Positions 21,679-34,646 of a stretch of 64,000 nt of DNA are shown here, piece after piece (the stretch's first letter is position 1; each line of letters opens with the position of its first letter). This DNA is from Sphingomonas sp. H160509 (GTDB lineage: Bacteria; Pseudomonadota; Alphaproteobacteria; Sphingomonadales; Sphingomonadaceae). Position numbers and translations under genes: made by a program. Location: positions 1-64,000 of the forward strand of contig NZ_JAMXSR020000004.1 in assembly GCF_024124765.2 (NCBI RefSeq). The letters are read 5' to 3'. The notes under the pieces were generated by a model. The model ran no database searches, was not told the DNA's origin, and was given only the letters and a program-made list of their open reading frames with translations.

Positions 21679-21828
21679 TGCCCCTTGATGCGTTGCGACC
21701 GACGGTCCGGCCGTCGCGGCGCTGACCTGCTCGCTATAGATCGTGGTGCAACCGGCCGCATCTAGCTTGGCGAGCCGTTGTGCCAGGTCCTGGTCGGTGG
21801 GTGAAACGCGTGCGTGGCTATAAATCAT
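21679..21828 (-). pseudogene. Serine recombinase remnant (N-terminal 50 codons)
   Basis: The ATG at 21828 begins MIYSHARVSPTDQDLAQRL, matching the N-terminus of the intact resolvase at 31461-32027 (MIYGYARVSSTGQDLAQQL). Similarity continues through AAGCTTIYSEQVSAAT and then fades after about residue 50. The catalytic-domain arginines and the DNA-binding domain are gone. Its upstream 90 bp aligns without gaps to that of the intact gene, including a 28-bp palindromic site exactly 63 bases before the start codon. Confidence 0.82.
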
Positions 21829-21890
21829 GCCAGCAACGTGCACTGGATTTATGGGTCACGGAAGTGCCCGGTTTTGTACGGTTTTTCGTT

Positions 21891-21918
21891 TGATGCAAAA
21901 ATTGTGAATTCCGTATCA
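21891..21918 (+). repeat. 28-bp palindromic site A
   Basis: Left arm TGATGCAAAAA, centre TTGTGA, right arm ATTCCGTATCA. It sits 63 bp upstream of the recombinase remnant, at the same spacing as site E. Confidence 0.85.
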
Positions 21919-21968
21919 GCGACACTAAGCTCGTGGAAGGCAGGCGTTGCTGCTGTAGCAAGGGCTGC

Positions 21969-22880
21969 ATGAGCGACGCCCACAACACGCAGACTGACAA
22001 GCAGGCAGAAGCCGCCCTCGCTAGATTAACCGCAAACGAAAAAGAGTGCTTACGCCGCCGGTTGCTACCTCAGACCGCAAAGGAGATGGCATCCGATCTA
22101 GGCATTTCGCCACATGCCGTAGAGAAGCGGCTGAAGATGGCGCGTGCCAAATTGGGTGTCTCCACATCGTTGGCCGCGGCACGGCTTTTGGCGGGCGCTG
22201 AAGGGGACCAATTACTGGTACCTCATATTCCGGACCTTCCGGACGGCAGAAACCAGCCTCAAGACAGCGACGTCGCGGTGCCTTCTGTATGGGCAACGAG
22301 CCTCCCAAAAGGATTGACCATGATTGCTGCTATCTGCCTGATCGCCCTAGTTGGCCAAGACGTTCCGACAGTGTCAATTGCTACACAGGCCCACTCCGTT
22401 TCGGAAAATTCAAAAGGCGTCTCAACAAGATTAGGTGTGGATATACCTAAAGTATCTATTAACAACTCAAAAGAATATAGCGGTTGGAAAGTTCCTCAGC
22501 CGACGCGACGTGAAAGTATAGATCGTGTCCGTCGGGAAACTGTTTTTATGGCTCAAGGTATCGCATGGAATATAAAAAGGCACCCTTTCGGCTCCCCCGA
22601 TTTTTACGGATATTTATTAAACGAGGTATACATTCGCTCTTTATCAGAAGCGATAATATTCAAGTATTCTAGAGAATCTGGTTTACAGGTGATAGAAAGT
22701 GTAAATCCTTACAATCGCTTTATCGAAAAAGACATTAAATATAAAGATATCAAATCACTCAATTCGATAGGTGACAGTATATCCGTATTTTATAATGGTT
22801 CTTTCGGCACGATTGTACGGATGCCAATGGCAAACACATTCGTCTATGCGACTCGACGTCCGTATAATATCAAGACATAG
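21969..22880 (+). CDS. LuxR/sigma-70-region-4-like HTH protein with a membrane anchor
   Basis: 303 aa from ATG 21969; an upstream in-frame start at 21933 is less likely because it would read a Cys-rich leader. Residues ~10-65 form a helix-turn-helix (LTANEKECLRRRLLPQTAKEMASDLGISPHAVEKRLKMARAKLGV). A single membrane helix follows at ~115-130 (LTMIAAICLIALVG), then an AT-rich-coded C-terminal domain with no recognised family. This points to a membrane-tethered one-component regulator whose extracytoplasmic part could sense a signal. It is alone between sites A and B. Codon composition drops to AT-rich in the second half. Confidence 0.72.
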   Translation: MSDAHNTQTDKQAEAALARLTANEKECLRRRLLPQTAKEMASDLGISPHAVEKRLKMARAKLGVSTSLAAARLLAGAEGDQLLVPHIPDLPDGRNQPQDSDVAVPSVWATSLPKGLTMIAAICLIALVGQDVPTVSIATQAHSVSENSKGVSTRLGVDIPKVSINNSKEYSGWKVPQPTRRESIDRVRRETVFMAQGIAWNIKRHPFGSPDFYGYLLNEVYIRSLSEAIIFKYSRESGLQVIESVNPYNRFIEKDIKYKDIKSLNSIGDSISVFYNGSFGTIVRMPMANTFVYATRRPYNIKT

Positions 22881-22975
22881 TCGCCGCGCTCTCGATGCCG
22901 GCGACGTACCGCTTCCCGCCTCGCCTCTCCTGCTAAAGCCGGAGCCGTGCTGTCGACCTGCCCACGCGATAACGT

Positions 22976-23003
22976 TGATGCAAAACTTTTGATTTTTGCA
23001 TCA
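22976..23003 (+). repeat. 28-bp palindromic site B
   Basis: Left arm TGATGCAAAAC, centre TTTTGA, right arm TTTTTGCATCA. It is identical to site H and to the reverse complement of site C. Confidence 0.88.
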
Positions 23004-23109
23004 GGAATGTCCGGGATGGGAAGAAAGCCGCCCGTCCGATTTTAGCCTGCGATTCACCCATTCAGAGTATGCATTCGGTGAGCGCCCCTCTAGTTTGGCG
23101 CGACTGATG

Positions 23110-24760
23110 CTACGCGGCTTGCGCGATGGCTTCGGGGCGCTGTTGTCGAGCTTTCCACTCCCACGGCAACAGCTCGTGAAGTCGTGTCTGCGGATGGTCG
23201 GAGATCTGCGCGATGACGTCGCGGAGCCAGGCATGCGGGTCGACGTCGTTAAGGCGGCAGGTCTGGATCAGCGTGTATATGGCGGCCGCACGGTCACCGC
23301 CGCGGTCAGAGCCGCAGAAGGTCCAGTTCCGGCGCCCGACCGCGACGGTTCTCACCCGGCGTTCCGCGGCATTGTTGGTCATGCAGATCCTGCCGTCAGA
23401 CACGAAGCGGGCAAAGCTAGCCCAGCGTGACAGCATGTAGCTGATGGCTTTGGCCAGATCGCCCTTGCGCGACAGGCGGCCATATTGCTGGCGCAGGAAC
23501 TGCTCAAGGTCGGCGACGAGCGGGGCGACGTAGACCTGCCGCGCGGCGAGCCGTTCGCTTGCGTTCCGACCCCAGATCACGCGCTCGGCTGCGAAGATCG
23601 CATCCATGCGGGTGACGATGTCGACCGCAAGCGGCGTCCGGCTCAGGCGAGCTTCCTTGAAGAACGGGCGACGGGCGTGTGCCCAGCACGCTGCTTCCAG
23701 GATGGGTCCTGGCTTGCGGCCCGCGGCGTAGAGTGCGTCATAGCCGCTATAGGCGTCCGCCTGCAGGATGCCGGCATACCGAGCAAGCTGCCGCTGCGGA
23801 TGGGCGCCTGTGCGGTCGCGGGTGTAGTAATAGCAGACGGCGGGCGGGTCGGTCCCGCCAAAGGGGCGGTCGTCGCGAACGGATGCCCAGATCCTGCCCG
23901 TTATGGTCTTGCCGGCTGCCATGACCGGCACGGTCGTATCGTCATGGTGGATGCGCTCGCCGGCGAGGATGTGCGCCTCGATGAGATTGACCAGGCCGCG
24001 CAGCAGGACGGTGCCGTGGCCGACATAGTCGGCAAGAGTCGACACGCTGATGTTCATGCCTTCGGCGGCATAGGTCTCGCTCTGGCGGTTGAGCGGCTGG
24101 TGCAGGCCGAACTTGTTGAACAGGACCATCGCCAGCAGGTTGGGGGCAGCAGATGCACGCGGAATGGGGTGGAAGGGCGCTGGCGGCTGCGTGATGGTCT
24201 CGCAGGCCTTGCAGATGAACTTTTCGCGGACCGTCTGCACGACGATCCACTGGCGGGGAACGACCTCGCGGCTCTCCGTGATGGTCTCGCCAATCTTCTT
24301 TAGCTCTGCACCGTGACAGCATGGGCAGCTCTCTGGGGCGGGTACGACGACGCGGTGGCGGGGGGAGATCGGCAGATAGCGGAGCGCGGGTCGGCTTCTT
24401 GCGGGTGAACGGCACCACGGGAACGCCAGCTGCACTGGCTTTGGCGACCGCTATCTCAGCGGCGAGCTCATCCTCGGTCGCAGTGGCAACAACGTCCTCG
24501 AGTTGCATTTCGAGCTGGTCGAGCAACTGCCTGTGCCGCTCGGACGACTGCCCCCATTTGTCCTGGCGTGCCTTGGCGATGCGTAGCTTGAGATCTTCGA
24601 TGATGGCGTGTGCATCGGCGACCTGAGCCTGGGCGATGGCGGCGAGTGCCTCGGCCTCGAGCTGAGCTGCACGAGCGATGACGACAGTGTGACGCTCGGC
24701 GATCAGCAGCGCTTTGAGCGCTTCAATATCATCGGGAAGGGCCTCGATGCCGGTGTTCAT
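23110..24760 (-). pseudogene. tnpC: IS66 transposase TnpC, single frameshift
   Basis: ATG 24760 begins the N-terminal coiled coil (LLIAERHTVVIARAAQLEAEAL) and the leucine-rich start of IS66 TnpC. The catalytic part is in a second frame: CPCCHGAELKKIGE zinc-binding motif, LADYVGHGT, HHDDTTVPVM (first Asp), LQADAYSGYDALY (second Asp), and NNAAERRVRTVAVGRRNWTFCGS (Glu region). Removing one C from CCCCCC near 24360 joins DLP to PRHRVVVPAPESC, giving ~550 aa, normal for TnpC. The break may be a base-calling artefact. Confidence 0.9.
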
Positions 24761-24836
24761 CGAAGCTCATTTTACAGCAGAAAACCGTCAATTTGTCGAG
24801 TAGTTTAGCGCCAAAACGCCAGGAAAACCGGGCGTT

Positions 24837-25184
24837 TTAGCCCGCCAGTTCGGGCCTGAACGTGTATTGTGGATTCCGCCAGTCGATGCCTTCCAGCAGG
24901 AAGCCGAGTTGCCCCGCCGAGATCGAAATGACGCCGTCAGATGTCGCCGGCCAGGTGAACCGACCGCGCTCCAGCCGTTTTGCGTAGAGCGACATTCCGA
25001 GGCCATCGTGCCACAGAATCTTCAGTAGATCGCCGCGGCGACCTCTGAAAACATAAAGGTCGCCGGCATGCGGGTTGCGTCCGAAACCCTGCTGGATCTG
25101 CATCGCCAGCGACGACATACCCTTGCGCATGTCCGTCTTGCCGGCGGCTATCCAGACCCGGGCCCCGCCCGGAACAAGAATCAT
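24837..25184 (-). CDS. tnpB: IS66 accessory protein TnpB
   Basis: 115 aa starting MILVPGGARVWIAAGKTDMRKG, with the IS66 TnpB signature FRGRRGDLLKILWHDGLGMSLYAKRLERGRF. The start overlaps the tnpA stop by 4 bases (ATGA). A longer in-frame extension to 25376 runs opposite to tnpA coding and is not used. TnpB is needed for IS66 transposition, but its biochemical role is unclear. Confidence 0.95.
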   Translation of the reverse strand: MILVPGGARVWIAAGKTDMRKGMSSLAMQIQQGFGRNPHAGDLYVFRGRRGDLLKILWHDGLGMSLYAKRLERGRFTWPATSDGVISISAGQLGFLLEGIDWRNPQYTFRPELAG

Positions 25185-25528
25185 GCTTTGAGCTCGCGCA
25201 ACGCCGCCACCAGCAAGCTCGCAGACACGCCGCCAGCCGCACGGATGGTCACACCGCTGAGCTCGATGACCAGCATGTCGGACGCACCGTGGTCGATCTC
25301 GGGCGGATCTGCATGAACGGCCACGGCTGCAAAGCCGGTCGGCTGCGCAAGCTTGCTGCACAGTTTGCGTCGCCAACGGTAGATCGACGAGGGCGAGATA
25401 TCGGCAGCGCGCGCGATAGCGGCAACCGACGCGCCAGGCACGATGGCTGCCTCCACCAGGGCAAGCTTCCGCTCGTCGCTCCAGTGGCGACGCCGCTCAA
25501 CGCCGGACAGTACAGTGATCTGGGTCAT
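25181..25528 (-). CDS. tnpA: IS66 accessory protein TnpA
   Basis: 115 aa from ATG 25528 (MTQITVLSGVERRRHWSDERK), with an upstream in-frame alternative at 25558. The N-terminal half is a helix-turn-helix (KLALVEAAIVPGASVAAIARAADISPSSIYRWRRKL), as in IS66 TnpA. It is coupled to tnpB by an ATGA overlap. Confidence 0.93.
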   Translation of the reverse strand: MTQITVLSGVERRRHWSDERKLALVEAAIVPGASVAAIARAADISPSSIYRWRRKLCSKLAQPTGFAAVAVHADPPEIDHGASDMLVIELSGVTIRAAGGVSASLLVAALRELKA

Positions 25529-25722
25529 CGCCACGTCTCTAACCACGGTGCAAACCACAGCGCTTGCACTGTGGCTAACATCTCAGCTCAGACCGTCACC
25601 CGCCAGATGCCCCTCACCGGATGCAGACCATTCAGACAGACCTCCGCGCATTCTGCGGATAGGCAAGCTAAAACGACGCTATGGTTGCAGGCGAGCAGGC
25701 GTCTCCGCAGTAATTTTCTCGC

Positions 25723-26169
25723 CTAGACGGCCGTCGGGTCGTTCTTACAGTTCGCAAACCCCGCCCGAACCTGCTTGGCTGTCCAAAGCCCGCGAGGCGA
25801 TTTCGAAACGACGAGTGCAGAAGTTGCATTGTATGTAGGTACGGTCGCGTCGCCTGACCGGCCGAGACCACGATCATGAAAGCAGAGCCGTAGGGAACCC
25901 GGACCTGCTGATAATACCCGAAAGCTCATCACCCATCCTTTGTCCCTGCGGAATATACTCGCGCCTTTCGCGCTCTTTTCCACCATCACGAACCCATAGT
26001 CGGCGAAGCTTGTCCTACCCGCCAACCGGCGTGGACCGACAGAATTTGGAAAACTGGTCAGGTTCAGGTTCTTTATGATCCCGTTTATGGTTCCAGCATC
26101 GGAAGACGCAGCTTGAGCTGATCCACTTACTGCGAGCGCAGTGAGGGTAATCAGAATGCTCTTTTTCAT
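25723..26169 (-). CDS. Secreted protein of unknown function
   Basis: 148 aa. ATG 26169 was chosen because AAAAGG lies 8 bases upstream. A clear signal peptide (KKSILITLTALAVSGSAQAA) is followed by a small globular domain with two Cys (RLCFHDRG and FANCKND), which could form a disulphide. No family is recognised. The gene lies in the zone between palindromic sites B and C, next to the IS66 element and the serine hydrolase, all on the same strand. Confidence 0.7.
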   Translation of the reverse strand: MKKSILITLTALAVSGSAQAASSDAGTINGIIKNLNLTSFPNSVGPRRLAGRTSFADYGFVMVEKSAKGASIFRRDKGWVMSFRVLSAGPGSLRLCFHDRGLGRSGDATVPTYNATSALVVSKSPRGLWTAKQVRAGFANCKNDPTAV

Positions 26170-26351
26170 GCTGTTCACCTTTTCCGCGGAAACGCGACGA
26201 TATGCAACGATATGTCCCCTTTCAAGCGGAGCAGGGTGCCGCCTAACGACCGTCTTTGGACGTTCCCGCCCGATCTGGCTTTCTCGGAGCGGATCCCTTG
26301 TGAGACGTCCAAGCCGTCCCGCTGATCGTTCCCAATCAGGAATGTCAGAAT

Positions 26352-27803
26352 TTAAGGTTTGGCATCCGTTTCTCTTGCGAACGGCCAGTCGAAAGATCCC
26401 ATAACGAGCCGCCCAGTGGCCTTAGGATCACGGTTATTCATACGCAGTACTAAGTCGGTTGAAAGGACGAAGTAGCTGTCAGGTGCCGAGGCATAGAGAG
26501 GTTCGCTGACACCCTCCTTAAGCGAAATAGCCAAGCTCGGTCCGTTCGCGGTGATCGAAAAGGAGCCGAGATCGGACACGGCGTAGGTTCCGATTAGGCG
26601 AGCGCGGATGTCGGCCGGGATCGGCACGCTCGCGCGCTCGATGCTGTGGTAACTCGGCCAGCCGTAGGTGGCGGCAACGCTGCGGGTGATTTCTGATCCC
26701 AGCTCGGCACCCTGGGCACCATTCGTCATGACCGCCACCCCGTCGCCCGACTCGGTATAGGCGACCATGAAGTTCTCGTATCCCTCGTTGCTGCCGCCAT
26801 GCGCGAAGGCGCGATCGGCAGGTGTCGGGTGAACCTCAACGCCGAGGCCCCATTCCCCCTTGCCGGGTGTGAGCATTACCGTCGCCAGCGATTGAGCGAG
26901 AATGCTGTCCTTCTCACCGCGCGCACTGTCTCGCACGGCCATAGTGAAACGCAGCAAATCACTTGGGGTGCTCCACAGACCAGCGGCGGCCAGCTCTGGA
27001 TAGGTGTGTGGCCCGCCGGGCACTGGCTTGCCCGACCCGTCATGCGGCCATGCGGCAGTCGCCAGCGAAGCGGCGTCGAGCGGCTGCGCGAAGCTGCTGC
27101 GCGTCATGCCGGCAGGCTGAAGCACCTCGTCTCGAAGAACCTCGGTGAATGGCCTGCCCGTCACATCGCCAATCAGTTTTTGAATGACCGTGTAGCCACC
27201 GCCGGAATAGCGCCACATCGTCCCCGGTTTCGTATCCACAACAACCGGCTTGGTGTTTGCAGGGGCACGTCCGGCAAGCACGTCGTCCACGCTCGGCACA
27301 GTGATCCCCGCAGCGTAGCCTGGGAAGCCATGCACCGTGGTTCCCGCCGTATGCGACAGCAATTCGCGCAGCGTGACGTGTTCACCCGGTGGCGTAGGCA
27401 GCTTCCATCCCCTGAGTTGCGCGTTTACAGAGCCGTCCAGCGTCAAGTGGTGCTGCTGGACGAGGCGCAACGCAGCCAGCGCCGTAATCGGTTTGCTGAT
27501 CGAACCGGCCTGGAACAGCGTATATGGCGTTACGGATGGCCCACCCGCTCGCGTGATCCCGTACCCTTTCGACCATTCAATGATGCCGCCATGCAGAACG
27601 GCGACGCTGACGCCAGGCACATTCAGCCGGCGCATCTCCGCTTCGATCGTGCGGCGTGGTGCTGGTGTACCCGCCAGTACAACGGCAGACGTCAGCCCCT
27701 GCTCGACCACAGCGATCCTAGATGGCGTGGGAGCAGCCTGCTGGGCTGTTGCGGGGATGGGCAGCAGGGCCATCATGTACGCTACTCGAACCAACTTGCT
27801 CAT
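26352..27803 (-). CDS. Class C beta-lactamase-type serine hydrolase (periplasmic)
   Basis: 483 aa. ATG 27803 with GGTGAGG upstream gives a signal peptide (VRVAYMMALLPIPATAQQ). The nucleophile motif SxxK is in AGSISKPITALAAL, the second motif is RYSGGGYTVIQ (Tyr-Ser-Gly) and the third HGG motif is in FAHGGSNEGY, all in family order and spacing. A C-terminal ~100-residue beta-rich extension (GTYAVSDLGSFSITANG) is common in esterase/peptidase-type members. It is more likely an esterase or D-aminopeptidase-like hydrolase than a true resistance enzyme, since the KTG box is HGG and the protein carries the extension. The frame is intact. Confidence 0.87.
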   Translation of the reverse strand: MSKLVRVAYMMALLPIPATAQQAAPTPSRIAVVEQGLTSAVVLAGTPAPRRTIEAEMRRLNVPGVSVAVLHGGIIEWSKGYGITRAGGPSVTPYTLFQAGSISKPITALAALRLVQQHHLTLDGSVNAQLRGWKLPTPPGEHVTLRELLSHTAGTTVHGFPGYAAGITVPSVDDVLAGRAPANTKPVVVDTKPGTMWRYSGGGYTVIQKLIGDVTGRPFTEVLRDEVLQPAGMTRSSFAQPLDAASLATAAWPHDGSGKPVPGGPHTYPELAAAGLWSTPSDLLRFTMAVRDSARGEKDSILAQSLATVMLTPGKGEWGLGVEVHPTPADRAFAHGGSNEGYENFMVAYTESGDGVAVMTNGAQGAELGSEITRSVAATYGWPSYHSIERASVPIPADIRARLIGTYAVSDLGSFSITANGPSLAISLKEGVSEPLYASAPDSYFVLSTDLVLRMNNRDPKATGRLVMGSFDWPFARETDAKP

Positions 27804-28105
27804 AGCCTCACCACCACGTGTACTATCAAGGTAATACACACGGTATTATCGCGCAGCAAGCGCCTTTCGTGCTTTGGTGTCTTCGAGTGGACACCTACGC
27901 GGATTCCCATTTTACCATCCCTCGCGAGAATGTCGGCTCGGGCAAGAACGCCCAGTTACAGACCTATTCGCCTTAATGCAGGGCGCCTTAGAGCAGCCGC
28001 TTGTTCAGCCTGCAGGCGCCGACTTTTTCGCTGACATCAGAGCGAGAAATTTTCTCGTTACGACCCAGTTGCCGGCAAACCGGAATTTTTCCTCCGCCGA
28101 ATACA
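27804..28105. other. Intergenic, degenerate palindromic repeat only
   Basis: A poor match to the 31-bp palindrome family lies near 27905-27935 (CATCCCTCGCGAGAATG). No gene was recognised. Confidence 0.4.
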
Positions 28106-28531
28106 CTATGGTTTGGGTGCAGGATTTATCTGCAAGTAAAAGCCGGCTACCTTCTTCCCAATAACGAAATAGGTAGTGGTAAGCTCGTGCTCGCCAGATT
28201 TGGCTGATACCGCTCCATACGGGCATGCACGTTTAACATCAACAAATTGCATGTTATCTCTATTAGGTATCCTAAAATTTGTTTTTCGCATAGATATTAT
28301 GCGGCAACCATATTTTTCAAGTGCACTTAATATCGATATTGAGTCTTTGTTTAGCGGTCCGCCAACGTCACCCATCCCGAAGGTGGCGTCAGTAGTCAGC
28401 ATAGCCAGTACGGTAGTCCAATCGTCCCTCGCGCTTGCTTCTAATAAATGTTTAACAACTATGACTGGAGTTTCGACGCCTGACATCGCAACGATTGGAG
28501 AAATCGCAACTAATGCAGCAATGAGGGACAT
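28106..28531 (-). CDS. Hypothetical exported protein, possible SnoaL/NTF2-like fold
   Basis: 141 aa with a hydrophobic N-terminus (SLIAALVAISPIVAMSG) that may be a signal peptide. VVKHLLEASARDDWTTVLAMLTTDATF resembles the first helices of NTF2/SnoaL-like domains, which is only a weak resemblance. The coding sequence is AT-rich at the 3' end. It lies between the serine hydrolase and the broken gene at 28805. The function is unknown. Confidence 0.6.
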   Translation of the reverse strand: MSLIAALVAISPIVAMSGVETPVIVVKHLLEASARDDWTTVLAMLTTDATFGMGDVGGPLNKDSISILSALEKYGCRIISMRKTNFRIPNRDNMQFVDVKRACPYGAVSAKSGEHELTTTYFVIGKKVAGFYLQINPAPKP

Positions 28532-28693
28532 AGTCAGCTACCTTGCCATCAAAGCACTAGCTTAGCTGCATAGCGAACTGTCGCAAACCAATTGGGTTGC
28601 CGCTAATCGGCCGTTGCCTTCCTACTAAACAAACGTCCGCCTACCCGGATCGCGGACCGAAAGCGGCCCAGCCGCTAACCTTCCCATCCTGGA

Positions 28694-28724
28694 CATTCCC
28701 GAAATTCGATCCCTCATGAGAATG
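28694..28724. repeat. 31-bp interspersed palindrome, intact copy
   Basis: CATTCCCGAAATT, then CGATCC, then CTCATGAGAATG. Related copies are at 47675-47705 and 57012-57042, plus one split by the IS1182 element (44064-44081 and 45741-45758). Confidence 0.75.
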
Positions 28725-28804
28725 CGGGATCGTACGAGAACGCCCACGTTCGGACGTTCTCAAACGCTCTTGCCCTGCCTATTAGCGGACGTCAGGATGC
28801 CGAA

Positions 28805-29668
28805 ATGACGAGAATCAAACGGCTGCTTCAATTGTCTTCGCTCGGTTTATCACTCGTAGCATCACTAATTTCAGCACCTGCGCAGGCGGCACCCGATCAG
28901 GTTAAGTCGGTATCCACGTCAGGGGCCGAAGACATCGTCGTGATGGGTACGACGAGAGCACGAATTAACGGCACAGTAAATCGAATGACTGCCGCTAATG
29001 GTGCGCAAATTCCGCGTTGGAACACCTCTATATGCATTGCCGTGCGAGGCGTGCTGCCAGACCGAGCCTACTCTCTCGCTGACACACTCAAACTGAATGC
29101 GCGAGCGGTAGGGGTGTAGTTGAGGGGCGGATCATGTTCTCCGAATGTCGAAATCTTCATTTCGGGACAAGCAGACGCGCTCGCGAGTCAGTTCTTGCGT
29201 CATCAACCCAATATGTTTCGGGACGTTGCCCGATACGGAAGACCGCGCTCGCGTGACCGGGCAGAACTGCTAGGTCCCGAACCGGTACGATGGACCGTGG
29301 GCACGGTCAGAGAATTGCGCTTGGGCGTCGCGTCTCGGCTTTCCCAACCATCGAGAGAAAACAAAGATCGGTTGCTAATAATTGTCGATTTACCTCGATG
29401 TGGCAATGTAACGTGGGAGCAACTCTACGCCTACCTTACTATGGTAGTGTTATCTAACCCCGAGCATACGAAAGATGGAACTAGTGGAACGATTATGTCG
29501 CTGTTCGATGTTGGTATGACTGAAGATAAACCCAACAGTTTAACTGACCTCGACCGCTTCCTGCTTAAAGCCTTGTATGCCACTGAAGAGCAGGTTCCAG
29601 CAATTTCCCAGTGGATCGCCATGACGGACTTCATTCTTCGTCAACGTGACAAACCTAATTTGAGATAA
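28805..29668 (+). pseudogene. Secreted hypothetical protein interrupted by an in-frame TAG
   Basis: ATG 28805 begins a signal peptide (LSSLGLSLVASLISAPAQAA). The mature part includes IPRWNTSICIAVRGVLPDRA. A TAG at 29117-29119 stops the frame, but the same frame stays open to 29668 and continues with CSPNVEIFISGQADALASQFL, RPVRWT-like and LIIVDLPRCGNVTWEQLYAYLTMVVL segments, ending LLKALYATEEQVP. The two halves together look like one ~287-aa family member that I recall only as a conserved hypothetical protein of sphingomonads. Unlike the other breaks in the window, this is a substitution and not an indel, so true inactivation is more plausible. Confidence 0.7.
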
Positions 29669-29792
29669 CTCGATCTGCCTGCTGTCTTCATTGATCAAAA
29701 TGCCGTTGTTGTAGGTTAGTCAGATGGTTCACAACGCGGTATCTTTTGCCCAATAGCGGACGGGCCGCTTTCCTTCTCATTCCGGACATTCA

Positions 29793-29820
29793 TGATGCAA
29801 AAATCAAAAGTTTTGCATCA
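29793..29820 (-). repeat. 28-bp palindromic site C (inverted)
   Basis: The exact reverse complement of sites B and H. It lies 49 bases past the 3' end of the S41 peptidase gene. Confidence 0.88.
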
Positions 29821-29868
29821 GGAATATTGGGACGATGACCACCGCTGCCGGCCAGCACGTCTATGATT

Positions 29869-30889
29869 TCATTGGTTGTGGTTGGCGCTGTCCTGCTGAG
29901 CGCACTGGTCTGCCAACCAGCGTTGCGCAGCAGTCTCTGTGCCCGCGGATCCTAACTGCTCGTCCGGCATAATTGCGCCGACGTAGTCCTTTCCCGTTCG
30001 GTCCTGAACGCTGGTCTCGGTTAGCACGAGGAATGCTCTATCTCTGAGCGGGTACACCTTGTTCGCGGTAGTAAGACCAGCGGAAGGCAACCCGAAAACG
30101 CGGGTATGAGGGCGCCCAATGAAAGCGATTGCCGCCATCTCACCGGAACTGGCTGTGCGCGGCCCGATCAAAATGGCGACGGGGGCAGAGGGATTGCTTG
30201 ATCTCGAAGGCAGGCGGGCTCGGTGGAAGCGCTTCGGCAGAAGGAAAGATATTCCCCATCGACCGGATCCATGCCTGCTTGGTGCCGTCTGGGAGAACAA
30301 AAAAACCGAATGGCGGTTTCCCGAGCAGAGGATCCAAACCCCAAAGCATTGGCCACATGTTGCCGCCGCCATTGCCTCTCAGGTCGATGATCCAGCCACA
30401 CAAGGGAGACTGCTCCATACGTAGGAGAGCGCCGCGCACTGATGAGGTGTATGCGGCTCCCAACGACTGCCCATCCGATCCCAGAGTATTTAACTCTGGA
30501 AGGCGAAGATAACCAAACCGCCCGTCCGTAATCTTTGATGTTGGCATCGGGGGGCTGACAGGTGATCTTTCGCTTGGCTTCGCAGACGCGCTGTCATTGT
30601 TGGTCGGAATAGAGGAGGGCTCAACCAAAAAGGAATGGGGTTCGCGCAGCGCTCCGAGGATAAAGCGTATTGCAGGATAGGTATCTGCAGGTCGCTTCGC
30701 GTCAGCCATTAAGATTTGCGCGCGCGGGACTAACTCCGCCCAATTTACCTGGCTGCGGTTGCGGTGATGCTGCCTGATTAGACCCAGAGCTTGCTGAAAG
30801 TACTTGTCGGCCGTGTCACTCGGCGCAGCGGGTTCCCCGGCCGCAGCCAAAACCACGCCAGCAGCGAGAAAAAACATCGCTTTCCGCAC
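29869..30889 (-). pseudogene. S41-family (C-terminal processing type) peptidase, single frameshift
   Basis: ATG 30889 begins a signal peptide (KAMFFLAAGVVLAAAGEPAA). A TSKITDGRFGYLRLPEL strand and the conserved WIIDLRGNGGGNMWPML follow in frame one. The catalytic region IGPRTASSGEMAAIAFIGRP (Ser within SSGE) is in a second frame (29869-30372). One base must be dropped near 30190-30200 to join SPPAFEIKQ to SNPSAPVAIL. The restored protein of ~338 aa lacks an obvious PDZ domain. S41 enzymes cleave proteins near the C-terminus in the periplasm. It is the only gene between palindromic sites C and D. Confidence 0.85.
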
Positions 30890-31460
30890 GGACTGCCTCC
30901 CCGTTTTATCTACATTATGCCGTCGAGAATTCCACGCGCAAGCATACTCGATCGCTATGACCTTGGCATTCCATCAATTGGCATCGCTTGGCCAAGGTCG
31001 CATTACAGCGATCCGACATGCATGATGCGAAAGTCACGAGTTTTGCATCACATTCGCGGCGAAAATCGCCGGCGTTAGAAATCTGCGCCGCCCGTCTGGA
31101 TCGTCTGCGCGGTGTTTCGGAACGGATGCCGGCTTGATGCACCCAATATATCCGCTTTCGGGTGAGCCCTACTTGGCCGCCGACCCGTTCAGTCGCTGTT
31201 GGGTACCCCGAATGCATTTGGGCCGGCCGGTCCGCCCTTGGCCTGACCACTGGGGGCGGGCCGTTACCTACTTGGGAACACTCGGCAGTACATGCGTTCG
31301 CATCGGGCCGATCCGTGCTCGCCCATTCAGACGGCAGTCGCCATTGCTCATTATATGGTGGATTGCGACGGAACGCCTTCGAAGCTGCCCGACCGCTCGT
31401 CACCGACGCCCGCTGATGACGGATGGGTGGTCGTGTCAGGCCGGCTTTCGTCAAAAGTTG
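30890..31460. other. Gene-poor stretch holding palindromic site D
   Basis: About 570 bases between the S41 gene and the recombinase stop codon. Mirror-image long frames on both strands have no motif. The only structure found is site D. Confidence 0.5.
31023..31050 (-). repeat. 28-bp palindromic site D (inverted, diverged)
   Basis: Read on the minus strand: arm TGATGCAAAAC, centre TCGTGA, arm CTTTCGCATCA. It shares the GT central dinucleotide with sites A, E and G. Confidence 0.8.
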
Positions 31461-32027
31461 TTAGGCGGGGTCCGCCCCTTGCGTTCGGTACAGCCGGGAT
31501 ATCGTCGCCTGATCGACACCAAATAGAGCTGCGACGGTGCGCTGCGTATCGCCATCAGCGAGCCGTTGTAGCGCCACCGCCTGCTGATGAGGGGAAAGGG
31601 CAGCGCGCCGGCCGAACTTCACGCCACGGGCCTTGGCTTGGACCCTACCGGCAGCGGTGCGCTCGCTAATACGATGGCGCTCGTAGCTCGCCGCCACACC
31701 CAGCACGGCAATGATAACCTCTGCGAATTGAGACGTGGTGTCCACCATCGGCTCTGCGATCGAGCGAAAGCCGGCACCGGCTTCTTTCACCGCATAAAGA
31801 ATGTTCAACAGGTCGCGGGTATTGCGGGCGAGACGATCGGTCGCCATCACCATCAACACGTCGCCGGCATCAAGCACACCGATCGCACGCTTGAGTTGCG
31901 GGCGCTCGGTCGTCCCGCCGCTGACTTTCTCCTGATAGATCCTCGTGCAGCCGGCTGCGCTGAGTTCGGCGAGCTGCTGCGCCAGGTCTTGACCGGTAGA
32001 TGAGACGCGTGCGTAGCCGTAAATCAT
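31461..32027 (-). CDS. Serine recombinase, resolvase/invertase family
   Basis: 188 aa from ATG 32027 (MIYGYARVSSTGQDLAQQL; a start five codons upstream is possible). The nucleophilic Ser is in ARVSS, and the second catalytic cluster is MVMATDRLARNTRDLLNIL. The long E-helix region follows, and a C-terminal helix-turn-helix (LADGDTQRTVAALFGVDQATISRLYR) completes a small resolvase. It should cut both strands at a ~28-bp crossover site. Site E lies 63 bp upstream, where a res or inversion site is expected. The frame is intact. It is the only gene between sites D and E, and could be the enzyme that acts on the eight palindromes of this zone. Confidence 0.93.
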   Translation of the reverse strand: MIYGYARVSSTGQDLAQQLAELSAAGCTRIYQEKVSGGTTERPQLKRAIGVLDAGDVLMVMATDRLARNTRDLLNILYAVKEAGAGFRSIAEPMVDTTSQFAEVIIAVLGVAASYERHRISERTAAGRVQAKARGVKFGRRAALSPHQQAVALQRLADGDTQRTVAALFGVDQATISRLYRTQGADPA

Positions 32028-32089
32028 GCACCGGTTGTGCATTGGATTTATGCATCACGGAAGCGCCTGATTTTCGACCGTTTTTATCA

Positions 32090-32117
32090 TGATGCAAAAT
32101 TCGTGAGTTCCGCATCA
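32090..32117 (+). repeat. 28-bp palindromic site E (recombinase-linked)
   Basis: Arm TGATGCAAAAT, centre TCGTGA, arm GTTCCGCATCA. The preceding 60 bp aligns gap-free with the region upstream of the recombinase remnant at 21828, so this is probably part of a res-like region with accessory subsites (GCATCACGGAAG). Confidence 0.88.
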
Positions 32118-32257
32118 AAACCATGCCGTGCTGAGTTTAGATGCGGTCGTTTCAGGTCAAGGCGTTAGCCGCCATTGGTGAGAGAAGCGCTTACGACCGA
32201 GCCGCCGCTAATCTATATGGCATGCATAGAGCTTGCATCGTGCTTGGAGGCTGACAC

Positions 32258-32737
32258 GTGATTTTCATTTTGATGCTTATTGCTGCGGCGACGGCGCTCT
32301 GGCCACCAGCTCAAGCCGATTGGCCGGTCGGCAAGAAAATCAAGCTAGCCGTGGTGCTGGAACCACGATCAAATAAACAAGGTATAGCTGAAGACTTTGA
32401 CGCAGCCGTTCGTATTACAAGCGTCGACAAGGTTGGACTCGATCCCGCCATGTCTTTCACTCGCGGTATAAGTTTGCAGGTTTCAACAATCGACGGGATA
32501 CCTGTCTTGCCTGTGTTTCCGCCGGCTGGATCACCGCCCACTCCGCCCATTACTGACACTACCTACTTGACGAAGGTAGGTCATGAAAAACCGATGTTGG
32601 TAAAGCTTAAAGAAAACCCCCCACACGATATTCCCTGGCGCTGGGCGATACCGCGTGCGCGCGATCGTTTCGATATTCGACTGGCGCCACAAGCCTGTAC
32701 GCTACGAACAGTTCACTTCACCCTCGGTCATAATTGA
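32258..32737 (+). CDS. Secreted protein of unknown function
   Basis: 159 aa with a GTG start, chosen because GGAGG lies 8 bases upstream. The N-terminal signal is IFILMLIAAATALWPPAQA. The mature part is beta-rich and Pro-rich in the middle (FPPAGSPPTPPITD), with one late Cys. No family is recognised. It is the single gene of the E-F interval. Confidence 0.65.
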   Translation: MIFILMLIAAATALWPPAQADWPVGKKIKLAVVLEPRSNKQGIAEDFDAAVRITSVDKVGLDPAMSFTRGISLQVSTIDGIPVLPVFPPAGSPPTPPITDTTYLTKVGHEKPMLVKLKENPPHDIPWRWAIPRARDRFDIRLAPQACTLRTVHFTLGHN

Positions 32738-32782
32738 TGTCAGCAATAGCTAACTGATAGCCGACCGCCGGGATCTCGTTCG

Positions 32783-32810
32783 TGATGCAAAACCTTTGAT
32801 TTTTGTATCA
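32783..32810 (+). repeat. 28-bp palindromic site F
   Basis: Arm TGATGCAAAAC, centre CTTTGA, arm TTTTTGTATCA. Confidence 0.85.
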
Positions 32811-32831
32811 GAATGCCCGTGTCTTTGCATT

Positions 32832-33095
32832 TCAGACGGTAGGCAGCTCGGGGGTAATCTGCTCCTGTTCGATTAATTTAGTAAGTCGGAGTCTACCAAA
32901 GAATCCGAAAGGCCAAACTGTACGATCAGGTAGGTCGATTCGAAGCCGATTTCGGTCTGTCGGTCGCAACGCTGCTATCAATCGAACTGCTTCGCGAAGA
33001 GTATCTGTGCATAGCAGATCCTCTTCGTTTCGGTATCTCCTAGACGCTCTACGCCGCCACAATAGCGCGCGATCGTCCCAAGGGATGTTGCACAT
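32832..33095 (-). CDS. Small hypothetical protein
   Basis: 87 aa, basic N-terminus, no signal peptide. GGAGAGG precedes the ATG at 33095 with good spacing, which favours a real gene over the longer overlapping plus-strand frame. LREAVRLIAALRPTDRNRLRI is likely helical. No family is recognised. It is the single gene between site F and the related palindrome at 33172. Confidence 0.5.
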   Translation of the reverse strand: MCNIPWDDRALLWRRRASRRYRNEEDLLCTDTLREAVRLIAALRPTDRNRLRIDLPDRTVWPFGFFGRLRLTKLIEQEQITPELPTV

Positions 33096-33171
33096 TCCGG
33101 CCTCTCCGTCTTTCAGAGCGTATCGTAGCCGCGATCGTCACCCCTTAGGTCGCACCATGCGCCGAAACCTG

Positions 33172-33203
33172 CGTTGCAAAATAGACCCCTTTTGCGACGC
33201 GGC
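33172..33203. repeat. Second palindrome family, copy 1
   Basis: CGTTGCAAAAT, centre AGACCC, CTTTTGCGACG, then CGGC. The GCAAAA...TTTTGC core and 11-6-11 layout resemble the 28-bp sites, but the outer arms differ. Confidence 0.72.
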
Positions 33204-33510
33204 TAACCGCTTTCGGGCTTGCGTAATTTGGAACCTGTCAGCGTTTTTTCGGTGGTGTCACTCGTGATGATTGGTTTGGGCCATGCCTTGGTACATCCAA
33301 ACCTTCGGCCCGCCGTTGAATGGCTCTGTAGGCCGTCAGAAGGATACAGGCGAAAAAGGGCTGAGCGCCGGCCGGGTACGCTACATGGCAAAGGCGCTCA
33401 GCATCGAGGTTAGGGAGGGAGAGTCGTCCCAGGCCTTTCTGGCAGAATATGGTTAACATTTAGATAACCTGCGACCGTCCGCCGAATTACTCGGCGAACA
33501 CATTGCAGGC

Positions 33511-33538
33511 TGATGCAGAATTTGTGATTTTTGCATCG
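33511..33538 (+). repeat. 28-bp palindromic site G (diverged)
   Basis: Arm TGATGCAGAAT, centre TTGTGA, arm TTTTTGCATCG. Confidence 0.8.
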
Positions 33539-33589
33539 TGGACGCGAAAGTTGGTAGACGAGCTTGACGCGCCGTGACTCTCAAGTCCG

Positions 33590-33949
33590 TCAGTTGGCCA
33601 ATCTTTTCCGCCGGACGACAACGTACAGCACGCTTGTTGCCAGCGTTACCGGAAGGGCACTGACCGAAAGCACGAGTACTGCAAAAACGAGGATGCCACC
33701 TCCGTCAGTACCCTCGGGGTTGCTCCGTGTTGCTACAAACGCCAGCACATTCATGATGAATGGCAAGAAAGCAGCCCCAAGCAGAATGGCAATAATGGAG
33801 CTATGCCCCATCACCCGCCGTCCTGCAGTCGCCATAAATCCAGCGGTGATTAGTGCCACGATAGCAGCCAGCAGTACCAAAGTGCCGATACCGTCACGGC
33901 CGGCAATGGTGTTTGGATGCGATAATGCAGACCAGAGCGCTTCTAACAC
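33590..33949 (-). CDS. Small integral membrane protein
   Basis: 119 aa with three predicted membrane helices (TLVLLAAIVALITAGFM, IIAILLGAAFLPFIMNVLA and ILVFAVLVLSVSALPVTLA) and a basic C-terminus (VVRRKRLAN), which suggests a cytoplasmic tail. No family is recognised. It shares the G-H interval with the secreted protein at 34040, on the same strand. Confidence 0.65.
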   Translation of the reverse strand: MLEALWSALSHPNTIAGRDGIGTLVLLAAIVALITAGFMATAGRRVMGHSSIIAILLGAAFLPFIMNVLAFVATRSNPEGTDGGGILVFAVLVLSVSALPVTLATSVLYVVVRRKRLAN

Positions 33950-34039
33950 GGCGTTCTCCGAACGTGAGGGCGATAAATCAGTCTGCCCGATAGCTAGCCG
34001 CTACGACCGAATTATTGGAACGGTAGCGCGTGCGTATTG

Positions 34040-34513
34040 CTACGGCGCTACACCTTCGATGTTACGATCGACCAGCCTCTGAAGCCGGCGCGCGGCGGGG
34101 GTGATGCATGACCAATCGGCAGGGGCGACCAGACGCCGCGCACCGTTGCGGATCATGATCACCGGGATCGGAGCGTTGGTGATGATGAGGTCTTGCAGTC
34201 GATGCTTGTGGCCCTCGCAATCGGGATAGCCCACGCCCTCGCGCAGCGCAGCGTCGAACGCGGAGCGGATAGCGGCAAGGCGAGGTGCGGGAACCGTGCC
34301 GCTCCGATCCTTAGGTTGAGGATAATAAGTGGGCCAAACAATCCCAGCCGGCGTCATGATCCGGTATCCGCCGCTAACTAGGTCGAGGGTCAGCCGGCGC
34401 GGCGGTGTGAATTCGGACAGTTCGACATCGATTTCGAGCGTGCGGGGTGCCGAAACATCCTTGGCCAATGAACCTTCAAGGGCGAGGACCAAGGTGAGGA
34501 TCGAAAGAAGCAC
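34040..34513 (-). CDS. Secreted protein of unknown function
   Basis: 157 aa with a short signal peptide (LLSILTLVLALEGSLA). The mature part starts with a beta-rich LEIDVELSEFTPPRRLTLDLVSGGYRI and carries YPDCEGHKHRLQDLIITN and WSCITPAA, two Cys that may pair. No family is recognised. It lies upstream of the membrane protein at 33590 on the same strand and downstream of site H. Confidence 0.65.
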   Translation of the reverse strand: MLLSILTLVLALEGSLAKDVSAPRTLEIDVELSEFTPPRRLTLDLVSGGYRIMTPAGIVWPTYYPQPKDRSGTVPAPRLAAIRSAFDAALREGVGYPDCEGHKHRLQDLIITNAPIPVIMIRNGARRLVAPADWSCITPAARRLQRLVDRNIEGVAP

Positions 34514-34618
34514 AGGCCATTCCTTCGCAGCGTCATTGCCGCGCAGACGATGTCACCTAAGCCTAAATGCGTCCAGATTTGTTCGGGGCGATTCCGGCCG
34601 ATCGCGTACCCGCCGACT

Positions 34619-34646
34619 TGATGCAAAACTTTTGATTTTTGCATCA
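34619..34646 (+). repeat. 28-bp palindromic site H
   Basis: Identical to site B over all 28 bases although 11.6 kb away. Confidence 0.88.

Follow-up and report, generated by a model that had tools for sequence, protein, structure and literature searches.

A candidate single-gene cassette system linked to a Sin-type resolvase in Sphingomonas

Integrons carry a tyrosine integrase gene next to attI and hold their cassettes in tandem arrays with an attC at each 3' end, attC being recombined as a folded single strand. dif modules, also carriers of gene cassettes, are bounded by sites in opposite orientation. To our knowledge the gene-cassette systems known so far (integrons, dif modules) all rest on tyrosine recombinases. 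Here we describe eight 28-bp palindromic sites, small genes and a serine resolvase gene which together resemble a cassette system in a stretch of 64,000 nucleotides from Sphingomonas sp. H160509 (hereafter the window; C5:1-64000 of the 4.84-Mb genome).

The locus is like an integron in its small, diverse cassettes and in a docking place (platform) with accessory repeats beside the recombinase gene. It differs in that the recombinase is a serine recombinase, each platform usually holds one cassette and the cassette lies between two cores with unequal centres. No tyrosine integrase gene was found at the platform, where the gene is that of a serine recombinase; no search for one was made elsewhere. 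Tandem arrays of the integron type are not the rule, one cassette per platform being usual, with five short arrays (loci L126, L122, L091, L163 and L336).

Acinetobacter dif (pdif) modules, as far as the portions seen of PMC6449649 and PMC12907356 describe them, likewise have 28-bp sites around small genes, occur on plasmids and chromosomes and undergo shuffling, and the dif-module layout of two 11-bp arms and a 6-bp centre is matched by the window sites. These modules depend on the tyrosine recombinases XerC/D, whereas the sites here are direct, differ in their central dinucleotides and keep a constant spacing to a resolvase gene that has its own accessory site. The opposite orientation of dif-module sites is not the pattern here either: 60 of 68 neighbours within 1.3 kb share a strand and eight lie on opposite strands. 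The system departs from integrons in the features tested, and from dif modules in one of those tested.

Resolvases of the Sin/beta type with their res sites share with the locus a serine recombinase, a core of inverted half-sites, a head-to-tail site II beside the gene and a plasmid location (PMC2428073, in part). Sin is known from that source for resolution, whereas the cores here lie at the edges of genes that can be exchanged, the distal one being without an accessory site. In serine integrase cassette exchange (SIRA), as outlined in the sections seen of PMC3936721, a replaceable cassette also sits between two sites of different central dinucleotides; SIRA is man-made and uses attP x attB of a large serine integrase, whereas the present arrangement is natural and its enzyme a small resolvase. 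No such cassette system was found in the open-access literature searched, and the parts seen of PMC12907356 and PMC3516476 do not describe one. The components are already known; the novelty is their use. The arrangement appears to resemble an engineers' cloning trick in which genes are swapped at fixed docks and are unable simply to fall out. If true, a cassette system with a small serine resolvase and with compatibility decided by two bases would give an environmental genus a new way of exchanging genes, would account for a pool of singly moving small genes and could serve as a natural docking tool.

Unequal pairs of 28-bp cores

A first-pass annotation of the window had proposed eight sites of 28 bp, A to H, and each was found precisely where it had been placed. 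Sites B, H and inverted C are identical, and the division by central dinucleotide into TT (B, C, F and H) and GT (A, D, E and G) was likewise confirmed. The sites and the features around them are as follows.

21709-21840, minus strand: N-terminal remnant of the resolvase gene next to site A, 64% identity across residues 2-45
21839-21858, plus strand: decayed accessory site II of platform A, its half-sites head to tail, with 4 mismatches to the site II consensus
21891-21918, plus strand: core site A, centre GT, with accessory site
21933-22880, plus strand: cassette 1 gene, sigma70 region 4-like helix-turn-helix (HTH) and NtrY_N-like stretch
22976-23003, plus strand: core site B, centre TT, distal end of cassette 1
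29793-29820, minus strand: core site C, centre TT, distal end of cassette 2
29869-30889, minus strand: cassette 2 gene, S41 peptidase broken into two overlapping frames, probably by a frameshift
31023-31050, minus strand: core site D, centre GT, without a recognisable accessory site (11 mismatches)
31464-32042, minus strand: serine resolvase gene, 193 amino acids (aa), probable start M6 near 32027, Pfam Resolvase (E 1.7e-36) and HTH_23
32038-32057, plus strand: accessory site II of platform E, TGCATTGGATTTATGCATCA, head-to-tail half-sites, 1 mismatch
32090-32117, plus strand: core site E, centre GT, with accessory site
32258-32737, plus strand: cassette 3 gene, 159 aa, no Pfam family
32783-32810, plus strand: core site F, centre TT, distal end of cassette 3
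33511-33538, plus strand: core site G, centre GT, without accessory site (11 mismatches)
33590-33949, minus strand: cassette 4 open reading frame (ORF), 119 aa, in the part nearest G
34040-34513, minus strand: cassette 4 ORF, 157 aa, in the half of the cassette that is 81-83% identical to the sole cassette of L102
34619-34646, plus strand: core site H, centre TT, distal end of cassette 4

With a relaxed 28-bp pattern, the zero-mismatch matches in the 4.84-Mb genome are the window's eight sites and no others; weaker matches carry 1-3 mismatches, the best beyond the window lying at C1:174339, and the reversed pattern used as a control gave 0 forward and 2 reverse matches. The eight sites are local, real and above chance. 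The asymmetric centre gives each site a strand, and this sorts them into four direct pairs, A>B (+), D>C (-), E>F (+) and G>H (+), in each of which a GT core comes first and a TT core last, with one or two small genes inside. The intervals B-C (6.8 kb), D-E (with the resolvase) and F-G (0.7 kb) break this GT>TT rule. Hence the view that the sites cut up a cassette zone holds for the zone itself and not for every interval: the idea that each interval is a cassette was rejected, B-C, D-E and F-G lacking the site order found elsewhere. The unit is instead a direct pair with unequal centres, and arrays are rare.

Pairing was then counted in the window and 60 fetched regions with 140 sites (reversed control 0), most of them picked for clustered sites, blind to the centres. 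Among the 60 same-strand neighbours within 1.3 kb, 59 have unequal centres (GT>TT 54, GT>CT 2, GT>AT 1 and TT>GT 2, beside a single GT>GT). The 59 unequal pairs are spaced 325-1,230 bp apart, except for two of 2.2 kb. In a larger set of 90 units with unequal centres, equal-centre units being left out by construction, 77 are GT>TT; six are TT>GT, some of which may be adjoining units and not cassettes. At a looser threshold the lone TT core of L089 gains a decayed GT partner. At the level of sequence the pairing of unequal centres is a rule, and the central-dinucleotide groups do seem to matter for compatibility, as the first-pass annotation had suggested.

The rule is also visible when cores are counted by the presence of an accessory site. 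The next core is unequal for 66 of 96 such GT cores (TT 62, CT 2, AT 1, TC 1), GT for 5 and absent for 25. Of 16 TT cores with an accessory site, one (pSY2) is followed by GT and 15 by none, and no core follows any of the six AT cores. An unequal distal core therefore accompanies 66/96 GT versus 1/22 TT or AT platforms (p 1.9e-8, relatedness ignored), a difference that is inflated because many loci were picked for clustered or paired sites, so that a count anchored on resolvase genes (given below) is fairer.

A Sin-type site at a fixed distance from the resolvase gene

The window resolvase comprises a serine recombinase catalytic domain and a C-terminal HTH (Pfam Resolvase, HTH_23), and its PDB matches are Gin, Tn3, gamma-delta and Sin. 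Its gene is part of the D-E interval and points away from E. Sites A and E had been placed about 63 bp ahead of the resolvase remnant and the resolvase gene, respectively, and this proved correct, with 62 bp from core E to codon M6 (47 bp to the upstream in-frame start, from coordinates). To the left of the core lies the accessory site, which consists of two TGCATC half-sites arranged head to tail. In Sin-type systems the spacer is where a DNA-bending protein acts.

This architecture recurs in 27 of the 30 homologues with at least 60% identity, several of which are near-copies; there the core is 62-63 bp from codon M6 and a head-to-tail accessory site lies between. The right core half is damaged in two of the 27 (L254 and L264), and the arrangement is missing at the expected place in L262, L265 and L271. 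The cores of L254 and L271 (G163) are broken at the same point, with nearly the same sequence beyond, as if by insertion or recombination at the core. A scan of 358 loci (2.39 Mb) gave 512 raw sites and 0 in the reversed control, or 261 distinct sites. Their accessory-site scores are bimodal, with 0-5 mismatches in 118 of the 261 and background-like values in the remainder (15 of 5000 random places scored below 7). Furthermore, three resolvases of 45-47% identity (L062-L064) have a palindromic core of their own, TGTCGC...GCGACA or close. A head-to-tail site II is the Sin layout, unlike the regulatory sites of Tn3, according to the portion seen of PMC2428073. The 28-bp site is, as far as its sequence and surroundings indicate, the core of a Sin-type resolution site.

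Sites and resolvase are also linked across genomes. With at most one mismatch to the relaxed pattern, sites occur in 57 of 295 Sphingomonas genomes, the reversed control giving 0 in every genome, and they are present in 19 of the 22 genomes with a close resolvase versus 38 of the 273 without (p 1.7e-12, relatedness ignored). This linkage supports the earlier suggestion that the cassette zone carries its own serine recombinase. The exact TT site, allowing up to three mismatches, was found in 9 of 61 genomes, all of the same genus, and in none of the 24 from other genera. When named genomes were scanned, 102 stretches came up. Most are from Sphingomonas, with some from Sphingobium and Novosphingobium; the few scattered others are possibly chance matches. 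A phage origin was rejected: no phage record with the exact TT site was found, and the 17 phage records matching the resolvase are all under 60% identity. Three viral contigs contain a site.

It is conceivable that another recombinase such as XerC/D owns the sites, in the manner of dif modules, and that the resolvase gene is a frequent passenger. The first-pass annotation had named this as the main alternative. The 28-bp layout of two 11-bp arms and a 6-bp centre is that of dif (PMC6449649, in part), 38 of the 57 site-bearing genomes have no close resolvase, and a small serine recombinase gene is known as dif-module cargo in Acinetobacter (PMC12907356, in part). Since dif modules carry such cargo, the presence of the resolvase alone proves little, and the case for it rests on spacing, accessory site and covariation. 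These features, namely the core fixed at 62-63 bp from the resolvase start with its Sin-type head-to-tail accessory site and the different core of the more distant resolvases, disfavour the Xer/dif alternative. Positions 12 and 13 of the GT cores mostly vary between C and T, which would be odd for a 6-bp overlap. In dif modules the arms are similar to the chromosomal dif of the host and bind XerC/XerD; a dif pattern had 0 matches in the genome, which leaves no dif of the host to compare with the site arms. We consider ownership by another recombinase such as XerC/D improbable.

Cassette movement and a model of exchange

At the scpA locus, where gene names are our reading of the translations, four species carry inserts of 611-720 bp (sites included), and the flanks are 86-91% identical to L140. 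The four inserts, compared with one another in all six combinations, gave no blastn or tblastx match. In the fourth, L278, the sites have decayed to 6 mismatches each. Where scpA has no platform, there are gaps of 24-108 bp (L299, L300, L302, L303 and L304) or the map-gene region (L280 and L282). The same platform with a different cassette was also seen in L100/L125, L133/L142 and L139/L230.

The converse, a shared cassette in different flanks, was found for 23 unit pairs, of which 15 belong to a single cassette family (L096, L113, L128, L129, L171 and L022). L124 and L139 share a cassette (95.5%) and not the flanks, and a cassette is shared at 98% between L114 and L178 (Sphingomonas versus Novosphingobium), the right flank of L178 being short for judging. 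On plasmid pA46BH1 one cassette sits at two platforms whose flanks are unrelated. The two copies are identical over the stretch that begins at position 2 of the GT core and ends with the TT core, and a further unit bounded by TT comes after the first copy. L123 and L127 have a common cassette and 659 bp of right flank, with only 124 bp of left flank; apart from these, no units were found with a common cassette and both flanks, identical units having been collapsed beforehand. The sites thus coincide with breakpoints in gene content, as comparison of strains had been expected to reveal, with one platform holding different cassettes by species and one cassette residing at different platforms. 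These comparisons show that cassettes move, with breakpoints inside the cores.

Homologous recombination or transposition might have shuffled the genes with no dedicated system, leaving the palindromes as relics, terminators or transposon ends. Some encouragement for this comes from the outer flanks of many platforms (e.g. window 23004), which contain a dispersed intergenic repeat, GGAATGNCCGGGATGGGAAGGAAAGCGGAC... However, homology changes within the 28-bp cores, on both sides and in independent cases, transposition would not give different cargo at the same locus, and pA46BH1 strains the idea further. We regard it as very improbable.

Collectively the data show a real, mobile and mostly single-gene cassette system which, judged by position, belongs to the Sin-type resolvase. 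In the mechanism we propose, the resolvase would bind a Sin-type res comprising the 28-bp core (inverted half-sites, cut at the central dinucleotide) and the head-to-tail accessory site toward the gene. A platform would then be a res-type left end with a GT core plus a bare right core with a TT centre, and a cassette would usually be one small gene (about 0.3-1.2 kb) that brings with it the first core's right half and the last core's left half. The resolvase, as the presumed agent, would delete DNA between direct cores with equal centres, so that cassettes would persist only between unequal ones; GT and TT, being presumably non-compatible for the enzyme, would not be joinable and the cassette between them would be locked in. 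On meeting a second molecule (plasmid or other locus) with GT-cassette-TT, a GTxGT exchange would give a cointegrate and a TTxTT exchange would resolve it, swapping the cassettes in place. A GT circle inserting at a GT core would produce a two-cassette array, GT-c1-GT-c2-TT. Engineered vectors with two att sites of different central dinucleotides allow a comparable cassette swap, with low-level mismatched deletion (PMC3936721, in part).

Exchange through sites of unequal centre is the best-supported mechanism, and we lean slightly towards a mobile system of gene cassettes based on plasmid resolution, with cassettes held between unequal centres and swapped by double exchange. The broader picture, a natural form of recombinase-mediated cassette exchange in which one-gene docks are not emptied by the enzyme and trade genes between plasmid and chromosome across sphingomonad genera, seems to us evenly balanced.

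A more integron-like scheme would have one-site circles inserting and excising, with GT and TT joined, position 14 (G or T) marking the donor of the left half and excision keeping occupancy single. In its favour, the accessory repeats next to the recombinase gene make the left end reminiscent of attI, there are short arrays (L126, L122, L091, L163 and pA46BH1), and the array of pA46BH1 (GT-c-TT-c-TT) has the internal TT site that this scheme predicts. Against it, the other four arrays are GT-c-GT-c-TT, so that the internal site is GT in 4/5. L342 (TT>GT) and L230 (AT>GT) alter the order of the centres, which are still unequal. In a search for empty platforms the core with its right-flank repeat was found at 44 places in 24 of the 295 genomes; the 30 loci fetched hold a GT>TT or GT>CT unit (24), a TT core without a partner (5) or a GT-GT pair (1), and no clear empty platform was seen among them, one GT place (G205:C19:13204) not having been examined; this too counts against the scheme. 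The end of cassette A is GT in L091 but TT in L118/L119, as the scheme would allow, and the same observation led us to reject position 14 as a marker of the cassette's own left half. We judge one-site insertion and excision unlikely, more plausible than ownership by XerC/D.

Several findings weigh against double exchange between unequal centres. Anchored on 39 resolvase genes with a readable core, an unequal core comes next for 9 of 22 GT cores (GT for 2, none for 11) versus 1 of 17 TT or AT cores (TT for one, L195), which lends modest support to the unequal-centre rule (p 0.024, relatedness ignored). A partner core is missing for 25/96 GT platforms, or 11/22 when anchored on resolvases. There are eight same-centre neighbours; L126, L122 and L163 are arrays and L168 is two platforms in a row, and L130, L103, L123 and the TT-Y-TT second unit of pA46BH1 fit no such explanation. 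In L195 a weak TT core has another TT core 1,487 bp further on. The two endings of cassette A mean that centres can change or that mismatched joining occurs, and the genomes with sites and no close resolvase (38/57) count here too. An attempt to place the crossover to the base by comparing half-sites was abandoned, the halves being too conserved. Neither a circle nor a junction was seen, and the same-platform comparisons and pA46BH1 offer possible products of a double recombination. Finally, Sin requires its accessory site (PMC2428073, in part); the distal cores have none, which leaves the TTxTT exchange unexplained.

Plasmid context and cargo

In PLSDB a resolvase above 60% identity occurs in 24 of 160 matching plasmids. 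Stretches were fetched from 21 of these 24, and in many the gene has rep, parA or mob genes as neighbours, so that its home job is probably plasmid resolution. Three of the 21 stretches contain cassettes, namely pA46BH1, an S. paucimobilis plasmid (GT>AT) and pSY2 (TT>GT). The 158-kb contig bearing the window (G000:C5) has two plasmid replication initiators (RPA; C5:8108-8791 and C5:78606-79304), so that the zone is probably on a plasmid, perhaps a cointegrate. In a tree of 45 resolvases a four-state label (GT, TT, AT, broken) takes 15 changes, with 19 of 42 inner branches weak; the starred branches force at least 5 changes for GT.

Cargo was examined through the longest ORF of each cassette in the 59 pairs, 53 in all once five redundant ones and one below 60 aa were set aside; the strand may sometimes be wrong. 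Of these, 28 run along the pair and 25 against it. Pfam matches are few and diverse, probably in about 13 proteins: EF-hand (2), glyoxalase, GGDEF, Imm53, DUF4279, TonB_C, M23, META, S41 and others. A joint alignment of the ORFs has a mean column identity of 7%. Mean G+C is 0.554 in cassettes versus 0.603 in the flanks. Defence cargo was rejected, PADLOC matching 1/53 ORFs with a Cas10 model; this is perhaps the GGDEF protein.

In the window, the S41 peptidase of cassette 2 is probably a pseudogene, since it is split over two frames. Cassette 4 (33539-34618) has the look of two cassettes fused with no site between them, and L124:15171 shows a similar fusion. The resolvase sits between two outward-facing GT cores (window 31023-32117; also L105, L107, L124 and L126), an arrangement in which inversion of the resolvase segment might be conceivable. 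In L356, an S. naphthae plasmid, transposition genes lie beside a resolvase without a readable core, an arrangement which we take to be reminiscent of res-hunting transposons.

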